DNA of 38,578 bases, from contig PNOC01000034.1 in the NCBI GenBank assembly GCA_013824615.1, positions 1 to 38,578 on the forward strand, written 5' to 3'. Below, piece by piece: positions 2,098-35,054 of the stretch. Source of the stretch: Thermodesulfovibrio sp. GTDB taxonomy: Bacteria; Nitrospirota; Thermodesulfovibrionia; Thermodesulfovibrionales; UBA6898. Below the pieces are notes generated by a model. The model did no database searches. It was given only the letters and a program-made list of their open reading frames with translations, and was not told the origin of the DNA. Each line of letters starts with the position of its first letter. Within the stretch, counting starts at the first letter, position 1. Position numbers and translations under genes: made by a program.

Positions 2098-4335
2098 TCA
2101 GTCCAAGCTGTTTCTGTCCAGCATCTCTCTTATTTTGGCCAGAAGATCGTGCGGGGTTACCGGTTTTGAGATGAAGTCCATATTTTCTTCCAGCACCCCT
2201 CTTGTATTGATTACGTCAGCAGTATATCCGCTCGTGAAGAGAATTTTCATATCAGGACGTATCTCTTTGATATGATCATAAACCTCTTTTCCGCTTTTCT
2301 TCGGCATGATAACATCAAGGATGACAAGCTGGATACTGCCCGCAAACTCATCAAATCTGTTTATCGCATTCTCTCCATCAACTGCCGCAACGACCGTATA
2401 GCCAAATCCCTCGAGCACGCTGTGCATCAGCCCCCGTACTTCGTCATTATCCTCGGCAACCAGGATGGTCTCTGTCCCGCCTTTCGGCCCGGCCACCGCT
2501 ACGGTCTTTACCCCTTCAGCCGCTGCCTCGGTCAGGGGCAGATAAACCCTGAAGGTCGTCCCTCTGCCGGGTTCACTGTATACACTGATATGGCCATTAT
2601 GCTGCTTGACTATCCCATACGCCATGGACAGTCCGAGCCCCGTGCCCTTTCCAATCTCTTTGGTCGTAAAAAAGGGATCAAATATCTTCTGTCTTGTTGC
2701 TTCATCCATGCCCTGCCCGGAATCAGTCACCGCGACCATGGCATAGAGGCCGGGCTTCTCAATTATGTTGGCCGCAATATAATCTTCGCCAAGCTGCACT
2801 ATTTCTGTGCTGACCGAAAGCTGACCACCCCGGGGCATGGCATCGCGGGCGTTTGTGCAGAGATTCATCAGCACCTGCTCAATCTGGCCGGGATCAACGG
2901 TAACCGTCAAGTTCCTTTCTGAAAGAAGAGTCTTAAACTCAATATCCTCCCCGATCAGCCTCATCAGGAGCTTCTCAATGCCCCTGATAAGCCGGTTCAG
3001 GTCTGTCTGCTTCGGACTAATCACCTGTTTTCTGCTGAAGGCAAGAAGCTGCCTGGTCAGGTCAGCCGATTTTTCAGCAGAATTGAGTATCTGAATCACC
3101 AGAGATCTGAGGGGACTGTTATTCTCGATCTGCATGTCCAGCAGGCTGCCGCAGCCGATTATGACCTGCAGCATATTATTGAAATCATGGGCCACGCCAC
3201 CGGCAAGATGTCCGACCGCTTCCATCTTCTGTGCCTGCTGCAACTGTATTTCGAGCTTCTGTTTTTCATGTTCTGCCTCACGTCGCTCGGAAATATCTCT
3301 GGCCAGCCCCATAATAAAACTATGCCCGCTGATTTCCTGCAGTCCCATACGTATCTCGACCGGGAAATGAGTGTTGTCCTTTCTCTGGTGCAGGCTTTCA
3401 CAGGTGATGGGAGCAAAAGGCCGCAGGTCTGCCCAGGGCTTTTGCTGCAATTCACCGTCCCGGCCACCTGGCTCGATATCACTGAGCGTCATGCCGCTGA
3501 GCAGCTCCTGCCGCGAATAACCGAGACTCGCACAGGCCTGCTGGTTGACATCAATGATCACCCCCTGGGGATCAAAAAGAAAAAAAGCATCAACAGCCTG
3601 ATCAACAAGAGTATGAAAACGCTTCTCGCTCTCGAATAGTTCAGCGTTTCTCTTTTCGATCTTCCCGATCATCGCATTGAAAGAGTCGACGAGCTGTCCC
3701 ACCTCGTCATTGCCCTGTTTCTCGGCCCGCAGCGAGTAATCCTGCTGTTGCGAGATCTGCCTGGCTGACGAAGCAAGAGACAGAATGGGTTCGGCTATCA
3801 GCCTCTGCATATAGGAGATCAGCAGGGAGGCCAGACCAAGGGAGATCAGCACCACCAGAAGCATCATCGACAAAGCAAACAGGCGATTCCTGCTGATTGC
3901 TCTCATATCGTCGAACAAGGTAAGGGACCCGATCACCGTGCCACCCACGGTAATATTCCGGCTTACCTTCAAAAAACCGGGCACTGTTTTGTCCGAAGGA
4001 TCATCAGGTTTTTGAGTATCGCCGCCGGGGGGCGTTCCATACAGCGCAAAAATGTTGCCGGCCTGATCCCTGACAACCGCATACTTCACCGAACTGTTGA
4101 CCGACAGGGAAGCGAGGACACGCTCGGCATCCTCAGGGATCCGGAAGGCCAGGGAAGCCTCGCAATTACGGGCTATGACTTGCGCCAGCCCCGTAATCCC
4201 CTCTTCATACGACTGCCGGAAATGGGCTGTCGTCATGACATAAAAAATAATACAGGAGATCAGCACGGCAGCGGCTCCTGCTCCGAGCAGAAGCACCGTC
4301 AGCTTCTTCCCTATGGTCATATCCCTGAACTTCAT
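2098..4335 (-). CDS. CHASE8-type hybrid sensor histidine kinase (HAMP-PAS-HisKA-HATPase-REC)
   Basis: I start this 745-residue protein at the ATG at 4335; upstream in-frame codons overlap the preceding gene. Order: membrane helix near residues 11-33; a periplasmic segment with the GLAQVIARNCEASLAF and AVVRDQAGNIFALY motifs typical of CHASE8 sensors; a second helix near 150; HAMP; PAS; HisKA with phosphoacceptor H383 (AHDFNN); HATPase with N-box NLCTNARDAMP and G-boxes; and a C-terminal receiver with D674 (VILDVIMP). It should autophosphorylate in response to an envelope signal and pass phosphate to its own receiver, with unknown further partners. It is the last gene of the TonB receptor/YfiR operon. 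CHASE8 with HAMP is also the sensory half of the diguanylate cyclase YfiN, so a link to the upstream YfiR protein is plausible. Confidence 0.9.
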   Translation of the reverse strand: MKFRDMTIGKKLTVLLLGAGAAAVLISCIIFYVMTTAHFRQSYEEGITGLAQVIARNCEASLAFRIPEDAERVLASLSVNSSVKYAVVRDQAGNIFALYGTPPGGDTQKPDDPSDKTVPGFLKVSRNITVGGTVIGSLTLFDDMRAISRNRLFALSMMLLVVLISLGLASLLISYMQRLIAEPILSLASSARQISQQQDYSLRAEKQGNDEVGQLVDSFNAMIGKIEKRNAELFESEKRFHTLVDQAVDAFFLFDPQGVIIDVNQQACASLGYSRQELLSGMTLSDIEPGGRDGELQQKPWADLRPFAPITCESLHQRKDNTHFPVEIRMGLQEISGHSFIMGLARDISERREAEHEKQKLEIQLQQAQKMEAVGHLAGGVAHDFNNMLQVIIGCGSLLDMQIENNSPLRSLVIQILNSAEKSADLTRQLLAFSRKQVISPKQTDLNRLIRGIEKLLMRLIGEDIEFKTLLSERNLTVTVDPGQIEQVLMNLCTNARDAMPRGGQLSVSTEIVQLGEDYIAANIIEKPGLYAMVAVTDSGQGMDEATRQKIFDPFFTTKEIGKGTGLGLSMAYGIVKQHNGHISVYSEPGRGTTFRVYLPLTEAAAEGVKTVAVAGPKGGTETILVAEDNDEVRGLMHSVLEGFGYTVVAAVDGENAINRFDEFAGSIQLVILDVIMPKKSGKEVYDHIKEIRPDMKILFTSGYTADVINTRGVLEENMDFISKPVTPHDLLAKIREMLDRNSLD

Positions 4336-4370
4336 TGCCCGAGGGCACTCTTCCCGGCAAACACCATGAC

Positions 4371-4961
4371 TCAGGGTCCTTCGACGATCCGGACCGCAAT
4401 CGTCAGCAACTGAGCACTTAAACGGAGTCCTGCCCTGTCCGAAGCCGCCCGGTTGATCGTCCAGCGGATCTTTCCTCCGCTCTGCACCAGATTGATCATA
4501 CCGCCTGCTGATATAAAATTCTCCGTGTCGGCCACCGTGAGCACCGGAGAATCCTTCAGTCTGGCGATAATCCGCCTGAAATTCCCTTTTTCGGTCTGAC
4601 TCACGAAAAGAAGATGACACTCGCCGAAATCCATATGATCCTGGTAGGGGCCGTACTGGATAATCCTGACCGGCTTCATGCCGCTTCTACGCACGTCCGC
4701 CTGCAAGTCTGCCAGGGCCTCACCAAAGGGAGATTCCCCGACAATGCCGATCACCATGGCACCGTCTTTTGACACGGTGCGCCTGGATTCAGGCCACTGC
4801 ACAAACTGGAGGAAATTATAGAGGTAGACCGCCTTGAGTTCGTATTCCCTAACCGACGGCTGCTCGGCATAACTGACCCGCTGCAGCGGAACGGCCGACA
4901 CAAAAGAGAAGGTGCAGGAAAAAATTATACCGCAGAGTACGAAATTTCTGAAACGTTTCAG
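4371..4961 (-). CDS. YfiR-like periplasmic protein (DUF4154), CTG start
   Basis: A 196-residue secreted protein. The mature part has the DUF4154 pattern: an EYELKAVYLYNFLQFVQWP opening, GIVGESPFGEAL, a CHLLFVSQ strand, and a C-terminal NLVQSGGKIRWTINRAAS stretch. YfiR of Pseudomonas is the periplasmic repressor of the membrane cyclase YfiN. No ATG exists in this frame. A GTG at 4901 would cut through the signal peptide, whereas a CTG at 4961 restores a full one (KRFR, then a hydrophobic core ending before AEQ). That CTG overlaps the TonB receptor's TGA stop (CTGA) and lies 8 bases after GAGGT, so translational coupling is likely. The adjacent CHASE8 kinase is the natural partner. The domain call is firm; the CTG start is inferred. 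Confidence 0.82.
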   Translation of the reverse strand: MKRFRNFVLCGIIFSCTFSFVSAVPLQRVSYAEQPSVREYELKAVYLYNFLQFVQWPESRRTVSKDGAMVIGIVGESPFGEALADLQADVRRSGMKPVRIIQYGPYQDHMDFGECHLLFVSQTEKGNFRRIIARLKDSPVLTVADTENFISAGGMINLVQSGGKIRWTINRAASDRAGLRLSAQLLTIAVRIVEGP

Positions 4962-7048
4962 AAGCTATACCTCAGTTCAGCCCAGAAACTGCGATGCTGC
5001 AGGGGGTAGTCATTCGGGATCACGGCAGGACCTGGTTCGCGTGCATCGTTGTCAAAAAGATTTCTCACCGCAACGGCCAAATCACAGTGTTTTAGTATGT
5101 TCTTCTTCCTCAGCGTCATATTGACAAGGTCGTAATCCTTTATCTTCGGTCTCGTGTCGCCTGCTGCCCGGTGACGGTCCATGACTCTGAAATACTGGCC
5201 GTCAACAGACCACTCAGGCATGAATTTCCAGTGTGCATTTGCATAGAACTTCATGGCGGGCACATCAGGAACAACAGCCCCTGTGGCAGAGTCGGTCGAC
5301 CGCTGATACGAGAAATTGGCGCGAAGTTTCAGGGCTTCAGTCGCGACCCACTCGGTCTCGACCTCGAAACCCCGTCCCTTCTGGTCACGGGCATTCTGAG
5401 CTGTTTTTGTAGTCGCCGGTGCAGGATCAGCCAGATAGTCAATTAGTCCCTTAATGCGGTACTCAAAGAGATTCAGCCCGAACCGTAAGGCTCGGAGCGG
5501 ACGATAATCAAAGGCAAGTTCGTATGTGTTTATAGTCTCGGCGTCAAGATTGTTATTGCCTATAGTGGCCGGGTTATTCTGCTGATGCAGTTCCCCGAAT
5601 GTCGGGGGCCTGAAGGCCCTGCCATAGAGCAGCTTGGTAACCAGTTCGGGCGCTGTCTTCCAGACGATGGCAATCCTCGGGCTGATGGCGTTACCGAAGT
5701 CGGAATAGTCGTCATACCGCACTCCTGCAGTCAGTGCCCAGTTCCTGGCAAAGGCCCATTCATCCTGAATTCCGGCATAAGAAAGTCTTCGGTGCTGATC
5801 TTTCAGATATACATACGGCGTATTGGAAATATCCACAAGCGGCCCGAACTGCACCGGAATCCCGGGCCCGTAGTTTTTTTCCTGAAAGGTATCTGTGTTG
5901 AAGTTGTTTATGCCGAATGACAGCCTAATCCTGTGATCGTTGAACTTCCTGTAGTCCCCCGTGAATTCAATGCCCCCATTTAATTCCTTGACTCCGGGAC
6001 GGCCGATGGCATTTCTATAGTCAGGGGGAAAGAAATAAAAAGTATTTCTTCCCCAATTATATGAACCACTGACTCTGGTCGTAAGATCAAAATCCTGCAC
6101 CAGCTCTTTTTCGGTATAGACAAGCGACGCCAGAAGAGCATGACTGTCTGCTCTGCTCCTTCCGCTGTTGAGCGTGTTGCTCACCCCGGCGCCAATGCCA
6201 TTCCCCAGCATCCAGAAGCCATTAAGATTCAGCCGGAACTTCTCCCTTGTTACCGTCAGACTCGTATTGAACGTTTCATAATGCGTATCCAGAGGTCCGG
6301 GGGCCAGAGAGGGATACCCGCTTCCGAGCGCATCTTTCTCTATAATTCTCTTTTTGTCTCCCTCACCTTTTGCATATTCTGCCCCGAGAGCCACATCCCA
6401 GCCTCTATATGAACCGCCATGCTGCGCCCATAGGTCATAGGATCCGAAGGATCCTCCCCGGAATCCCGCATTGCTGCCATTTATATCCCTGCCATCTTTG
6501 GTGATGATGTTTATAGCCCCTGCAAAGGCATCAGCCCCGAGCACGGCAGAGCCTGGTCCCCGGATAATTTCTATCCGTGCAATCGTCGAAACAGGCATCC
6601 TGAAGGAGGCCGGTTTACCCCCGTTATTGTTGCTTTTCAGCGACTGTCCATCGATAAGGAGAAGCACCTGCGGGTTCAGCTGTGAATAGACTCCCCGTAT
6701 GCTCCATGTTGAGGTAAATACATTGGTAGCGCTCGGCTGCACATGCAGTCCCGGTACCGTCTCAAGTATTTCATCGAGTGTTGCTGCCCCCATATCCTCG
6801 ATATCCTGTGCCGTAATTACCGTTGCCACAGAAGGCGCGAGTTTCAGAGGCTTCAGCGTCCCGGTAGCAATAGCAACGTCCAGCTCAATCAGCTCTGCCA
6901 GGCCTTTCGTAAGGAGTGATGCCATGGCAACCGTTTCATCAGTGCCCGAAGACGCCCATCCGGGGGCAGGCGGGAAGATGAAAACAATAAATGCTATTGC
7001 TGCGGCATGCAAAGTCTTTTTCAGGAACCGGGCAGTCGTGATAAACAT
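4958..7048 (-). CDS. TonB-dependent outer-membrane receptor
   Basis: The chosen ATG (7048) follows GATGAGGTTGCC, a good ribosome-binding site, and begins a signal peptide (RFLKKTLHAAAIAFIVF...GWA). The 696-residue product has the plug domain (ATLDEILETVPGLHV, WSIRGV, VLLLIDGQSL, IEIIRGPGSAVLGADAFAGAINIIT) followed by a 22-strand-type barrel ending in an aromatic terminal strand (ELRYSF). A TonB-box-like ELDVAIA lies before the plug. Receptors of this type import siderophores, heme, cobalamin or other scarce ligands using TonB energy; the ligand cannot be read from sequence. No Fur box or cobalamin riboswitch was recognised upstream. The stop codon overlaps the start of the YfiR-like gene, which argues that the receptor works with this envelope sensor. 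Confidence 0.92.
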   Translation of the reverse strand: MFITTARFLKKTLHAAAIAFIVFIFPPAPGWASSGTDETVAMASLLTKGLAELIELDVAIATGTLKPLKLAPSVATVITAQDIEDMGAATLDEILETVPGLHVQPSATNVFTSTWSIRGVYSQLNPQVLLLIDGQSLKSNNNGGKPASFRMPVSTIARIEIIRGPGSAVLGADAFAGAINIITKDGRDINGSNAGFRGGSFGSYDLWAQHGGSYRGWDVALGAEYAKGEGDKKRIIEKDALGSGYPSLAPGPLDTHYETFNTSLTVTREKFRLNLNGFWMLGNGIGAGVSNTLNSGRSRADSHALLASLVYTEKELVQDFDLTTRVSGSYNWGRNTFYFFPPDYRNAIGRPGVKELNGGIEFTGDYRKFNDHRIRLSFGINNFNTDTFQEKNYGPGIPVQFGPLVDISNTPYVYLKDQHRRLSYAGIQDEWAFARNWALTAGVRYDDYSDFGNAISPRIAIVWKTAPELVTKLLYGRAFRPPTFGELHQQNNPATIGNNNLDAETINTYELAFDYRPLRALRFGLNLFEYRIKGLIDYLADPAPATTKTAQNARDQKGRGFEVETEWVATEALKLRANFSYQRSTDSATGAVVPDVPAMKFYANAHWKFMPEWSVDGQYFRVMDRHRAAGDTRPKIKDYDLVNMTLRKKNILKHCDLAVAVRNLFDNDAREPGPAVIPNDYPLQHRSFWAELRYSF

Positions 7049-7165
7049 GGCAACCTCATCAAAATTGATCGTCGTTAGCAGTGCTTTAATGCCAAAGACC
7101 TCCGGCATCTGCGTATGCGCTTCAATGATATCACAATCAGCATAAAAAACCTACCGGCCGGTGTG

Positions 7166-7194
7166 TTGACAGGAGGCGGGCCCGTGGATATTAT
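7166..7194 (+). promoter_or_regulatory. Strong sigma-70-type promoter of the OmpA-family gene
   Basis: TTGACA (7166-7171), a 17-bp spacer, and TATTAT (7189-7194) form a near-consensus promoter 26 bases before the ATG at 7221. A 10-bp perfect palindrome ACCGGCCGGT (7153-7162) sits immediately upstream of the -35 and could be a regulator site. The gene's ribosome-binding site is CGGAGGATCT. Confidence 0.75.
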
Positions 7195-7220
7195 AGTACA
7201 AATAATTTTTCGGAGGATCT

Positions 7221-8219
7221 ATGAGGAAATACGCACTTCTTGCGCTGTTGTTTCTAATCGCGCTGCCATTACCGGCCCGGGCCGAAATCCGGGAGGGAAG
7301 TTTTGAGATCAACCCTTTTATAGGATACTGCACCACTGCCAACTCTCCGGTATTCTGCCATAAGGATATCTTCGGCATCCGGATGGGCTATAACATAACC
7401 CGGCACTGGGAGATAGAAGGAGCCTATAACAAGGTCAATTCAAGCGCCGAACTGGTAGGCATCGATGCACTCTACCACCTGACACCTGATAAAAGATTTG
7501 TACCGTTTATTCTGGCGGGAATCGGATACGGCCATATAGAACCCAGCCGGAACCCTCACTATGACACGATGATGGGCGATGTCGGCGTGGGTTTCAAGTA
7601 TTTCCTGACCGACAATGTGGCTTTCCGGTCTGAAATCAGGGACGTCGTGACCCATTCAAACAATGTGATTGTTTCTGCCGGCTTCACCATAGCGCTCGGC
7701 GGCAAAACCAGGAAGATGGTCGCGGCGACCGTTCCCGCAGCTGAGCCGGTGATAACACCAAAGCCTGAGCCAAAACCGGAGATAAAACCGCAGCCGAAAC
7801 CGGAACCTAAATCTGAGGCAAAACCGCTGCCCGTTGCAGCTGTACCGGAAGCAAAACCCTCACCGGTAAGGATTGTCCTTGAGGATGTACACTTTGCCAA
7901 TGATAAGTACTCTCTAACTCCGGAGGCAAAAGATATTCTGCAGAGAAATATCCTGAAGCTGAAAGAGAATTCCGGCCTTGAGCTGGAGATCCAGGGGCAC
8001 ACCTCTGCGATTGGCTCAGATGAGCATAACATGAAGCTGAGCGTCAAGAGAGCTGCCATGGTCAAGGACTATCTCATTAAAGAAGGGATTGCTGAAAACA
8101 GGCTTACGGCAAAGGGCTACGGAGAGTCGCTGCCTGAAGTTCAGGAAAAAAAGCCTAAGAAAGAGTCTGTAGCAGCCAAAACAAACAGAAGGGTTCATTT
8201 CGAAATAAAGATTAAGTAA
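7221..8219 (+). CDS. OmpA-family outer-membrane protein (beta-barrel plus peptidoglycan-binding domain)
   Basis: This 332-residue protein starts with a clear signal peptide (MRKYALLALLFLIALPLPARA). Residues from about 22 to 160 alternate hydrophobic and polar residues like an eight-strand outer-membrane barrel. A linker of Pro-Lys-Pro-Glu repeats spans about 170-210, and the C-terminus is an OmpA domain with the LEIQGHTSAIGSDEHN motif and the closing NRRVHFEI motif that binds peptidoglycan. The protein probably tethers the outer membrane to the wall. It is divergent from the TonB receptor/YfiR/CHASE8 operon. In Pseudomonas the OmpA-domain lipoprotein YfiB sequesters YfiR, so this neighbour could play a related role; note that it has a barrel rather than a lipobox. 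A bidirectional terminator follows. Confidence 0.9.
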   Translation: MRKYALLALLFLIALPLPARAEIREGSFEINPFIGYCTTANSPVFCHKDIFGIRMGYNITRHWEIEGAYNKVNSSAELVGIDALYHLTPDKRFVPFILAGIGYGHIEPSRNPHYDTMMGDVGVGFKYFLTDNVAFRSEIRDVVTHSNNVIVSAGFTIALGGKTRKMVAATVPAAEPVITPKPEPKPEIKPQPKPEPKSEAKPLPVAAVPEAKPSPVRIVLEDVHFANDKYSLTPEAKDILQRNILKLKENSGLELEIQGHTSAIGSDEHNMKLSVKRAAMVKDYLIKEGIAENRLTAKGYGESLPEVQEKKPKKESVAAKTNRRVHFEIKIK

Positions 8220-8291: not shown

Positions 8292-9413
8292 TTAGAACTC
8301 AGGAGGCACCAACGAGCTCCTCGGCAGGGTAAAGCTGAAGGTACTGCCCTTGCCTGCCTCACTTTCGACCCAGATTTTTCCGTCATGAGCATCGAGGATC
8401 GTCCTGGCGATAACCAATCCGAGACCTGAACCCTTTTGATCCGGGCTCACGCGATAAAAAGCATCGAAAATGAAGGGGATATGTTTGTCCGGAATGCCGA
8501 TACCGGTATCCCGAACCTCAAACAGTATTTCCGTTTCCGAAACCTTTACCGCAACATTTACGGTACCACCGGGCTTATTGTACTTAACGGCATTTTGAAG
8601 CAGATTTGCAATTACGCGCTGAATCATTCTCTCATCGGCCAGAATAACCGGCAGCGGTTCCGCCGGGAAAAAATATTCGACACTTATGTCTTTCTGGACA
8701 GCCTCCAGTTTTATACCCTCGATCTGCTTCAGTACTGCAGTCTTGACATCAAAGTCACCCTTTACCGGCAGATATCCCTTTGTCTCAAAGCGTGAAAACT
8801 CTATGAAGCCGGTCAGCAGTTCTTCAGCTGTTTTCAGGCTGTCGTCTATTAATAATAGATCGTCTTTCAGATCTCGAGTCTTGCCCGACAGAAAGCGTTT
8901 TAATACCCAGGTTGAAGGGATGATAGCGTTTTTGATGTCGTGCGCAAACATAGAGAGAACGCTTTTGCGTTCCCGTTCGAGTTTTTTGATTTCTTCCAGC
9001 TTACTCTCAAGTTCTGTCAACAGTCTTTGACGTTCAATTGAATAGCGGATAGCCTTCAAAAGCGAGGCGCTGTCTATCGCACCCTTCACAAGGTAGTCCT
9101 GTGCTCCGCTGCGAACCGCCTGTATTGCAAGCGTTTCATCGCTCAATCCTGACAGCACAATTACCGGAACGCGCGGATACCGGGCATGGAGCTTAAGAAA
9201 GGACTCAATCCCTCTGCTTTCGGGAAGACCGAGATCCGTCACAACAATATCAAATGTTTCCGTCGCGAGATTTTCGAGAGCGGAGGAAAGGCTTGGCGAC
9301 CATTGCACCTGTATATCGATATTATTCATATGCCGAAAAGACCTCCGGATAATTGCAACGTCATCCGGATTGTCTTCGACCAATAAAACCTTTATCTGCT
9401 CCTGATACTCCAA
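8292..9413 (-). CDS. Receiver-histidine kinase fusion (REC-HisKA-HATPase)
   Basis: A 373-residue soluble protein. An N-terminal receiver carries the acidic pair EDNPDD and phosphoacceptor D60 (VVTDLGLPE), with K110 (YLVKGA) as the conserved lysine. A coiled-coil linker (about 125-150) leads to HisKA with H158 (FAHDIKN) and an HATPase domain with NLLQNAVKYN, DTGIGIP and GSGLGLVIA boxes. No membrane segment is present, so it should be a cytosolic kinase controlled by phosphorylation of its own receiver from another kinase. The start codon is TTG at 9413, just after GGGAGG; no alternative start preserves the first receiver strand. The plus-strand kinases begin about 250-360 bases away, divergently, and could be its phosphodonors. 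Confidence 0.9.
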   Translation of the reverse strand: MEYQEQIKVLLVEDNPDDVAIIRRSFRHMNNIDIQVQWSPSLSSALENLATETFDIVVTDLGLPESRGIESFLKLHARYPRVPVIVLSGLSDETLAIQAVRSGAQDYLVKGAIDSASLLKAIRYSIERQRLLTELESKLEEIKKLERERKSVLSMFAHDIKNAIIPSTWVLKRFLSGKTRDLKDDLLLIDDSLKTAEELLTGFIEFSRFETKGYLPVKGDFDVKTAVLKQIEGIKLEAVQKDISVEYFFPAEPLPVILADERMIQRVIANLLQNAVKYNKPGGTVNVAVKVSETEILFEVRDTGIGIPDKHIPFIFDAFYRVSPDQKGSGLGLVIARTILDAHDGKIWVESEAGKGSTFSFTLPRSSLVPPEF

Positions 9414-32726: not shown

Positions 32727-34595
32727 TTACGGAACATACTCCATCGCAAAATGAGAAGCGCCATCTCCAGAGCCAATGCTTAAAGATGATCCTGAATTCT
32801 GAAGAGCCATTACCTCAACGTAATCCCCTGCGTTCATAAACCCAGTAGTTGTAACCACAACCTGGGTATTCGCTCCAGTAACAGCAGGCACTATGGCTGA
32901 GGCAACATTTGTCGTGCCTCCTTGTTTGAGATACACCTGACGAAATCCGGTTGCATTTGTCTGAAACCAAATGATGGCGCTCATCCGGTAATAGCCTGTG
33001 ACAGGAACTGTGAATAGCGATGGATTTACAGCTGTATTGTGGATATCGCCAATATTATAACTATCAGTATCAAAGCCCATAGACGTAGAATTGCCTGAGG
33101 TCACATCGGCCGGCAATGTCGTGAAATAGGCCCTGACTTTAGGAGCTTGGGTTATGCTTCCGTATGGGATGTTGATTATGGCTGAGCCGTCTCCACTAAA
33201 ATAATTTGCTTTCACTGAGCCTGCCACATCGAGCTTCACCGTCGGGGCTCCGCTGCCGATGCCGACGTTGCCGTTTTTGAGCACCACCACGGCGTCTGAG
33301 CGGGCCGCATCTGAAGTCCCGTTGCCGATGACGAAAAGGCGGTCGGTAGGGACCCATGAATTAACATTTCCGAAAACAGGATTGTTGTATCGCCCTATGA
33401 CTGTCTCTTCACAAGATGCCGCAGTGGTGTCTGCGCCCATGGCCGTGGAGGCAAATCCACTCGCGGTGGTTCTAAAGCCCATGGCTGTGGAAACCATGCC
33501 ACTGGCGGTTGTGGAGAAACCCATGGCCGTGGAAGCCCAGTCGCTGGCCGTTGTAGAGGAACCCATGGCCGTGGAATCTCCTGCGCTGGCCGTTGTGACG
33601 TAACCCATGGCCGTGGAATTTCCTCCGCTGGCGGTTGTTAGAACGCCCATGGCCGTGGAATCATCTCCACTGGCCGTTGTGAAGTAACCCATGGCAGTGG
33701 ATATTACTCCGCTGGCGGTTGTTCCAGCGCCAATGGCCGTGGAGATTAGGCCAATGTTAACATCGTCCCACCCCGCTTGCCCGTATGCGCTTCCAGCCCG
33801 AAAGGCCGCCTTTTTCGGATACCACATCATGCGCTCTCCAGGCCCCTCCTTCGGGATAGTACCCTGGCCGTAAGTGCCCTCAAAAAGCACCCCGTCGCTG
33901 CTGGTTACATGAAGACCCGCAGCAATCGCATCCGTGCCAATTCCGACCCGACCCCCGGTCTTAGCCAGCGAAACATCACCCTCCAGATATATCGAGGCCC
34001 CCGCTGTCGGGGTTGCGTTTGGCGTAATTGCATCTACCGGGGCAGGTGTCTTCTGAAGGCTCTGTGGGTCAGCGGCCTTCGCTGTTTCGACGATCTCATA
34101 CATCGGTTTGTTTGCCTGAACACCAGCTGCAAGAGACTGCTGGCGAGCAAGGTATTTCTCGACTGCGCCTGCCACCCGTTCTTCGAAGGCCGCAGAAGAT
34201 AGCGTCAGCTCCACTTCAAACTTCACCCCCTGAGACCACTGCCCGTGGCCCTGTGCATCCAGACCCCTCACATACCAGACATAGCTCCCCTCACCAAGGC
34301 ACTGGCCTGACGACGGCGTCCAGGAAAGCGCAGGAGCCGGCACCCTATGGGAAAGCACCGGCCTGCCGGTCCGGGCATCCATATCCTCGCGCGAAAGGGC
34401 ATCGCCGCTCAGGGCTTCGTATGCCGAAAGCTCGTAAGACAATGCCCCAGCCCCCGGCCCCCAGCTGAAGGTCGGGCAGGCGTCCGACGTGCCCGCACCG
34501 CCCGGTGATACCGGCACCGCCGTATCAGCCCATACTGCACCGGCAGATGCCACCATGAGCATGATCAGAATAAGTCCCCTCAGAAGTTTATTCAT
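32727..34595 (-). CDS. Secreted fibre with YadA-type head repeats and C1q-like C-terminal domain
   Basis: The ATG at 34595, after GAGGAGGAG, starts a signal peptide (MNKLLRGLILIMLMVASAGAVWA); 622 residues. Residues about 24-130 resemble a fibronectin-III-like strand domain (CPTFSWGPGAGALSYELSAYE, GSYVWYVRGLDAQGHGQW). Residues 285-396 are eight 14-residue head repeats of STAMGxxTTASGxx type, as in trimeric autotransporter (YadA/Hep_Hag) heads. After a NVGIGSGAPTVKLDVAGSV connector, residues about 475-622 form a jelly-roll with C1q/TNF features (YFTTLPADVTSG, GYYRMSAIIWFQ, GDYVEVMAL). Both modules trimerise in known proteins. No membrane anchor or LPXTG motif is present, so how it is held at the surface is unclear. 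Confidence 0.85.
   Translation of the reverse strand: MNKLLRGLILIMLMVASAGAVWADTAVPVSPGGAGTSDACPTFSWGPGAGALSYELSAYEALSGDALSREDMDARTGRPVLSHRVPAPALSWTPSSGQCLGEGSYVWYVRGLDAQGHGQWSQGVKFEVELTLSSAAFEERVAGAVEKYLARQQSLAAGVQANKPMYEIVETAKAADPQSLQKTPAPVDAITPNATPTAGASIYLEGDVSLAKTGGRVGIGTDAIAAGLHVTSSDGVLFEGTYGQGTIPKEGPGERMMWYPKKAAFRAGSAYGQAGWDDVNIGLISTAIGAGTTASGVISTAMGYFTTASGDDSTAMGVLTTASGGNSTAMGYVTTASAGDSTAMGSSTTASDWASTAMGFSTTASGMVSTAMGFRTTASGFASTAMGADTTAASCEETVIGRYNNPVFGNVNSWVPTDRLFVIGNGTSDAARSDAVVVLKNGNVGIGSGAPTVKLDVAGSVKANYFSGDGSAIINIPYGSITQAPKVRAYFTTLPADVTSGNSTSMGFDTDSYNIGDIHNTAVNPSLFTVPVTGYYRMSAIIWFQTNATGFRQVYLKQGGTTNVASAIVPAVTGANTQVVVTTTGFMNAGDYVEVMALQNSGSSLSIGSGDGASHFAMEYVP
33408..33743 (-). repeat. 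Eight tandem 42-bp repeats encoding head repeats
   Basis: Eight in-frame 42-bp units, each encoding 14 residues of the STA(M/I)GxxTTAS pattern, lie inside the fibre gene. The codons for STAMG and TTAS are strongly conserved between units, while the intervening codons differ, consistent with repeated duplication followed by drift. Copy number could vary by slippage or recombination. Confidence 0.85.
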
Positions 34596-35054
34596 AATTC
34601 TCCTCCTCATTGATAATTGCATTGGATTTTTCGAGGTCAACATACAGCATTAGACGGACGAAGGGAAATTTCCGGCTCATTTACAAGAAAGTTGAATGCG
34701 GCATACGTCTCAATGGATTCCCGCCTGCGCGGGAATGACGGACAATATTTTGGAGGGAAGAAACGTGTTGATCTGAAAATACGAAAACAGGATAGCTGAA
34801 AAAATGATTTTAGACTCCACCCGACCGTTACCCCAAGCTGCTGCCTCCATATACCAACGGCTTTTTTTATCGTTAATTTTACCCCCCTTGCGTTCTGACT
34901 GTCAATCGGATAATTCGCGGATAATTCTCGGGGTTAACGGTTACTGGGCTCACCGAAAGTCGAAAGAACGGAATTGTCATTTTACGAACCCGTCAAAGGT
35001 CAAATAATGCTAAGATGTCTGTATATAGACTGATACTGCTGATAAGGGGGGCCT
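34596..35054. other. 459-base divergent intergenic region
   Basis: Lies between the fibre gene (minus) and UPF0182 gene (plus). It contains a dRS3-like repeat (34714-34741), an 11-bp tandem direct repeat CGGATAATTCG / CGGATAATTCT (34907-34928) and a near-palindrome GTCTGTATATAGAC (35013-35026) shortly before the UPF0182 ribosome-binding site. A possible minus-strand TTGACC for the fibre gene is weak. No gene is supported. Confidence 0.5.
34714..34741. repeat. Solitary dRS3-like repeat
   Basis: ATTCCC (34717-34722), an 8-base spacer and GGGAAT (34731-34736) match the dRS3 core exactly, and the flanks TGGATTCCC and GAATGACGGACAA match the pair at 1164-1250. In frame it reads MDSRLRGNDG, a peptide often seen in spurious annotations. 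Confidence 0.75.

Follow-up and report, generated by a model that had tools for sequence, protein, structure and literature searches.

An operon for a TonB receptor, a YfiR-family protein and a CHASE8 kinase: a probable trans-envelope signalling system

In a stretch of 38,578 nucleotides from Thermodesulfovibrio sp. (hereafter, the window), the genes for a TonB-dependent receptor, a YfiR-family protein and a CHASE8 kinase form a tightly packed operon that runs from position 7108 to 2098 on the minus strand. We consider it probable (roughly 0.6) that these genes encode a three-part trans-envelope signalling system, in which YfiR sets the kinase through its CHASE8 domain and the receptor stands in the place of YfiB. 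According to this model, periplasmic YfiR would bind the CHASE8 domain of the inner-membrane hybrid kinase with the face that Pseudomonas YfiR presents to YfiN, and would thereby set kinase activity, presumably by repression. The receptor, when loaded or energised, would alter the amount of YfiR that is free for kinase binding, and phosphate would pass from the kinase first to its receiver and then to a regulator that is probably encoded elsewhere. If true, this would be a further widespread route, beside the FecA/FecR type, for instructing a cytoplasmic regulator from an outer-membrane receptor.

The operon and its products

The operon and the genes next to it are as follows.

4958..7108, minus strand: TonB-dependent receptor (profile search: Plug E 2.8e-21, barrel E 5e-42)
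4371..4961, minus strand: YfiR-like periplasmic protein, DUF4154 (PF13689 E 3.4e-40, 137.9 bits)
2098..4335 (5' end approximate), minus strand: hybrid histidine kinase (CHASE8, HAMP, PAS, HATPase and receiver matches)
7221-8219, plus strand: OmpA-domain protein (OprF-like barrel and OmpA domain)
8292-9413, strand of the operon: receiver-kinase gene, adjoining the OmpA gene and apart from the operon

Elsewhere in the window, the product of 32727-34643 contains YadA head repeats.

The cluster of three genes had been proposed in an earlier note on this DNA, and the profile matches of all three products bear it out. The minus-strand starts given there for YfiR and the kinase were those of a list of open reading frames, and have been corrected to a CTG at 4961 and to approximately 4335, respectively. 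No ATG is found where the YfiR frame begins; the probable CTG start overlaps the receptor stop codon as CTGA, and the codons that follow it specify a signal-peptide-like N-terminus. The translational overlap between receptor and YfiR that had been claimed is thus real. An identical CTGA overlap is found at the YfiR start of a congeneric locus (L067, 5837-5839), and in the locus of a relative (L071) the ATG of YfiR overlaps TAA.

Profile searches of the 3.6 Mb genome detected eight TonB plugs, a single YfiR and a single strong CHASE8 match. Among 206 genomes of the class, YfiR is above the cut-off in 42; there are 43 strong CHASE8 matches, of which 42 immediately follow a YfiR gene. Given these numbers, the grouping of the trio is beyond chance.

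The YfiR-like protein scores far above the PF13689 cut-off (24.9 bits), and its AlphaFold model (pLDDT 90) has YfiR entries as the best PDB matches (TM 0.7-0.8). The model of the sensor half of the kinase (pLDDT 91) matches PAS-like periplasmic sensors (CitA, LapD ortholog); it should be noted that both are single-chain models, which say nothing on a complex. Since the mature YfiR domain contains a single cysteine, the redox signal suggested earlier is unlikely, at least of the disulfide kind.

The kinase is composed of a first transmembrane helix, the periplasmic CHASE8 sensor (PF17152, E 3.5e-11), a second transmembrane helix, HAMP, PAS, the kinase core and a C-terminal receiver. Its sensor half matches the DgcN/YfiN model (E 7.4e-23). 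The HisKA score of 22.9 bits is below the Pfam cut-off of 26.9; the H-box (HDFNN) and the N, G1 and G2 boxes are present, as are the Asp and Lys of the receiver. The profile search of the window kinase returned no GGDEF family match, and the output consists of the kinase core and the receiver.

For the receptor, the likely start is the ATG at 7048, followed by the signal peptide MFITTARFLKKTLHAA... Domain analysis of the window receptor found no N-terminal signalling domain. A short, conserved N-terminal segment lies ahead of the plug, and comparison of YfiR-linked receptors places a conserved segment between signal peptide and plug, with the consensus DLTELSLEELMNxEVTSVSKK.

Conservation of the gene order

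Loci were taken from samples of Desulfuromonadia, Acidobacteriota, Verrucomicrobiota, Desulfobacterota, Bacteroidota and Pseudomonadota, together with 80 named loci; identical YfiR domains were removed, and 426 distinct loci with room on both flanks were counted. The counts are descriptive, because the loci are not a random sample and the neighbour models were built from the window and refined by iteration. A receptor immediately before YfiR and CHASE8 immediately after it were found in 265 loci from several phyla, CHASE8 only, with no detected receptor, in 82, the receptor only in 28, neither in 42, and YfiR fused to a kinase in 9 (five of them behind a receptor). The earlier note had proposed a search for the same gene order in other genomes, and the order proved to be conserved in relatives. 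Both the receptor's association with the YfiR/CHASE8 pair and the kinase output that it had claimed are conserved across phyla. Complete genes mostly have a kinase as output, some with a receiver and some without it, and GGDEF outputs are common in Desulfuromonadia. The recurrence of the trio in many phyla suggests a common, little-studied route by which signals at the outer membrane reach the inside of the cell.

Several variants were observed. In loci L486-L490, and also L491-L494, a YfiR domain is fused to a histidine kinase through a long coiled coil and one membrane helix, and CHASE8 is absent; in L486-L490, a TonB receptor gene lies ahead of the fusion on the same strand. In L275, one open frame (3949-4863) holds the receptor C-terminus and YfiR, which may be a fusion or a sequencing error. 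A single genome, that of Fulvivirga imtechensis, contains twelve YfiR-family genes.

The divergent OmpA-domain gene, for which the earlier note had implied a YfiB-like role, was rejected as the YfiB counterpart: it scores 60 bits on the YfiB model, whose cut-off is 128, and is not conserved beside the trio. Only six other loci have an OmpA gene next to YfiR, and five of these lack a receptor. Within the operon and its OmpA neighbour, no YfiB lipoprotein gene was found. Five loci that lack a receptor and have a GGDEF output, that of E. coli among them, carry a YfiB-type gene beside YfiR, which in this small sample fits replacement of YfiB by the receptor.

The gene order might also be due to co-regulation alone, e.g., of genes for uptake of iron or of hydrophobic substrates beside an unrelated sensor; in its favour, TonB receptors often adjoin regulators in general. 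We regard this explanation as very improbable, since order and orientation are kept across phyla and YfiR and CHASE8 display a pattern of inter-protein coupling.

Coevolution of YfiR with CHASE8 and with the receptor

We aligned 360 YfiR/CHASE8 pairs and applied a pseudolikelihood coupling analysis to 355 of them; mean-field DCA was noisier. Periplasmic positions account for 27 of the 40 highest-ranking inter-protein pairs (binomial P 0.009). Neighbour-supported pairs make up 17 of the top 40 and all of them are periplasmic, compared to 0 of 13 in the membrane or cytoplasm (permutation P ~0.001). At an equal number of iterations (55), 23 of 40 pairs were neighbour-supported in the real data versus 4 and 8 of 40 in two pairing shuffles, a lenient control because shuffling also strips shared ancestry and only two shuffles were made. 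With 360 pairs in place of 293, several cluster pairs moved up and some noise pairs moved down; others, involving HAMP, stayed high. Couplings of HAMP columns reach a similar height, the top-ranked pair of the 355-pair analysis among them, and single coupled pairs are therefore no proof.

Two clusters were found. In the first, YfiR columns 144 and 147 (C-terminal helix) and F127 are coupled to CHASE8 columns 61-79; by alignment, F127 corresponds to PAO1 F162, and the coupled CHASE8 helix is the equivalent of AAVVF. In the second, basic YfiR columns 18 and 54 are coupled to acidic CHASE8 columns 140 and 142; in the alignment, these YfiR columns coincide with or adjoin PAO1 S57 and A89, which are YfiB contacts (PMC4887326). 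The coupled positions coincide with the YfiR-YfiN patch mapped genetically in Pseudomonas (PMC3375315). In the pair counts, the window clade combines W at the F162 column with I or V, never D, at CHASE8 column 72, a pattern that may represent one event. A periplasmic contact between YfiR and CHASE8 is thus predicted, on the basis of sequence covariation, on the face known from Pseudomonas, in agreement with the pairing proposed in the earlier note; with the gene order conserved and the couplings clustered, both the shared neighbourhood and the predicted contact on which that proposal was staked have been found.

For the receptor and YfiR, 116 pairs were analysed; the real maximum z is 6.3, and shuffles gave 5.7-7.2. 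The receptor N-terminus accounts for 8 of 30 receptor-YfiR couplings versus 5-6 of 30 in the shuffles. An earlier run with 113 pairs was more suggestive and is not to be leaned on. Several results go against the main reading: this coupling within the range of the shuffles, the 82 of 426 loci without a receptor, and the kinase score of 165 against 194 bits on the model of YfiR-associated kinases. The first two are what would be expected if YfiR and the CHASE8 kinase sense the periplasm themselves, with the receptor being a regulated transporter whose imported substrate is detected by YfiR or CHASE8, with no receptor-YfiR contact. Weak binding of small molecules in the YfiB pocket of PAO1 YfiR (PMC4887326) also favours this alternative, whereas the strong conservation of the N-terminal periplasmic segment in the linked receptors may argue against it; we judge it a minority possibility, considerably less likely than signalling with the receptor in the place of YfiB. 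A more specific form of the latter can be put forward only tentatively: the N-terminal segment of the receptor may bind YfiR on its CHASE8 face, so that loading or TonB pull hands YfiR between receptor and kinase. Such a relay would be widespread and could explain hydrocarbon reporting by OmpS and TOL_0244. In Thalassolituus, growth on n-C28 raises TOL_0244 sevenfold; it shares 40% similarity with OmpS (B5T_01485), which is reported to be indispensable for the sensing of alkanes by Alcanivorax (PMC6304351); the trio thus yields a testable proposal on receptors of the TOL_0244/OmpS type and the alkane response.

Relation to known systems

A literature text search, with most subscription papers outside it, returned no paper on TOL_0243 or on a receptor-YfiR relay, and no publication in which the receptor takes YfiB's part at the outer membrane. 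NCBIfam (2026) contains models for the TOL_0244 receptor (NF053590), the YfiR-like TOL_0243 (NF053591) and the YfiR-associated kinase (NF053592). The window YfiR is above the cut-off of its model (128.5 against 125 bits), whereas the window receptor (132.1 against 645) and kinase (165-169 against 194) are below theirs.

The earlier proposal that YfiR is rewired here to a histidine kinase is supported; however, it is not novel. In silico, Malone et al. 2012 (PMC3375315) reported Yfi modules whose output is a kinase, that of Geobacter sp. M21 among them, as well as modules with GGDEF-EAL or other outputs. The kinase modules resemble the window operon in the combination of YfiR with a sensor kinase and in that YfiB is mostly missing; TonB receptors are unmentioned in the text of that paper, whereas the window operon includes one. 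Compared to YfiBNR (Pseudomonas aeruginosa; YfiR-DgcN-YfiB in E. coli), the window system has a kinase and receiver in place of GGDEF, an operon with a TonB receptor upstream and without YfiB, and no conserved cysteine pairs. The YfiR family and fold, the CHASE8-HAMP sensor half and the predicted contact face are the same in both.
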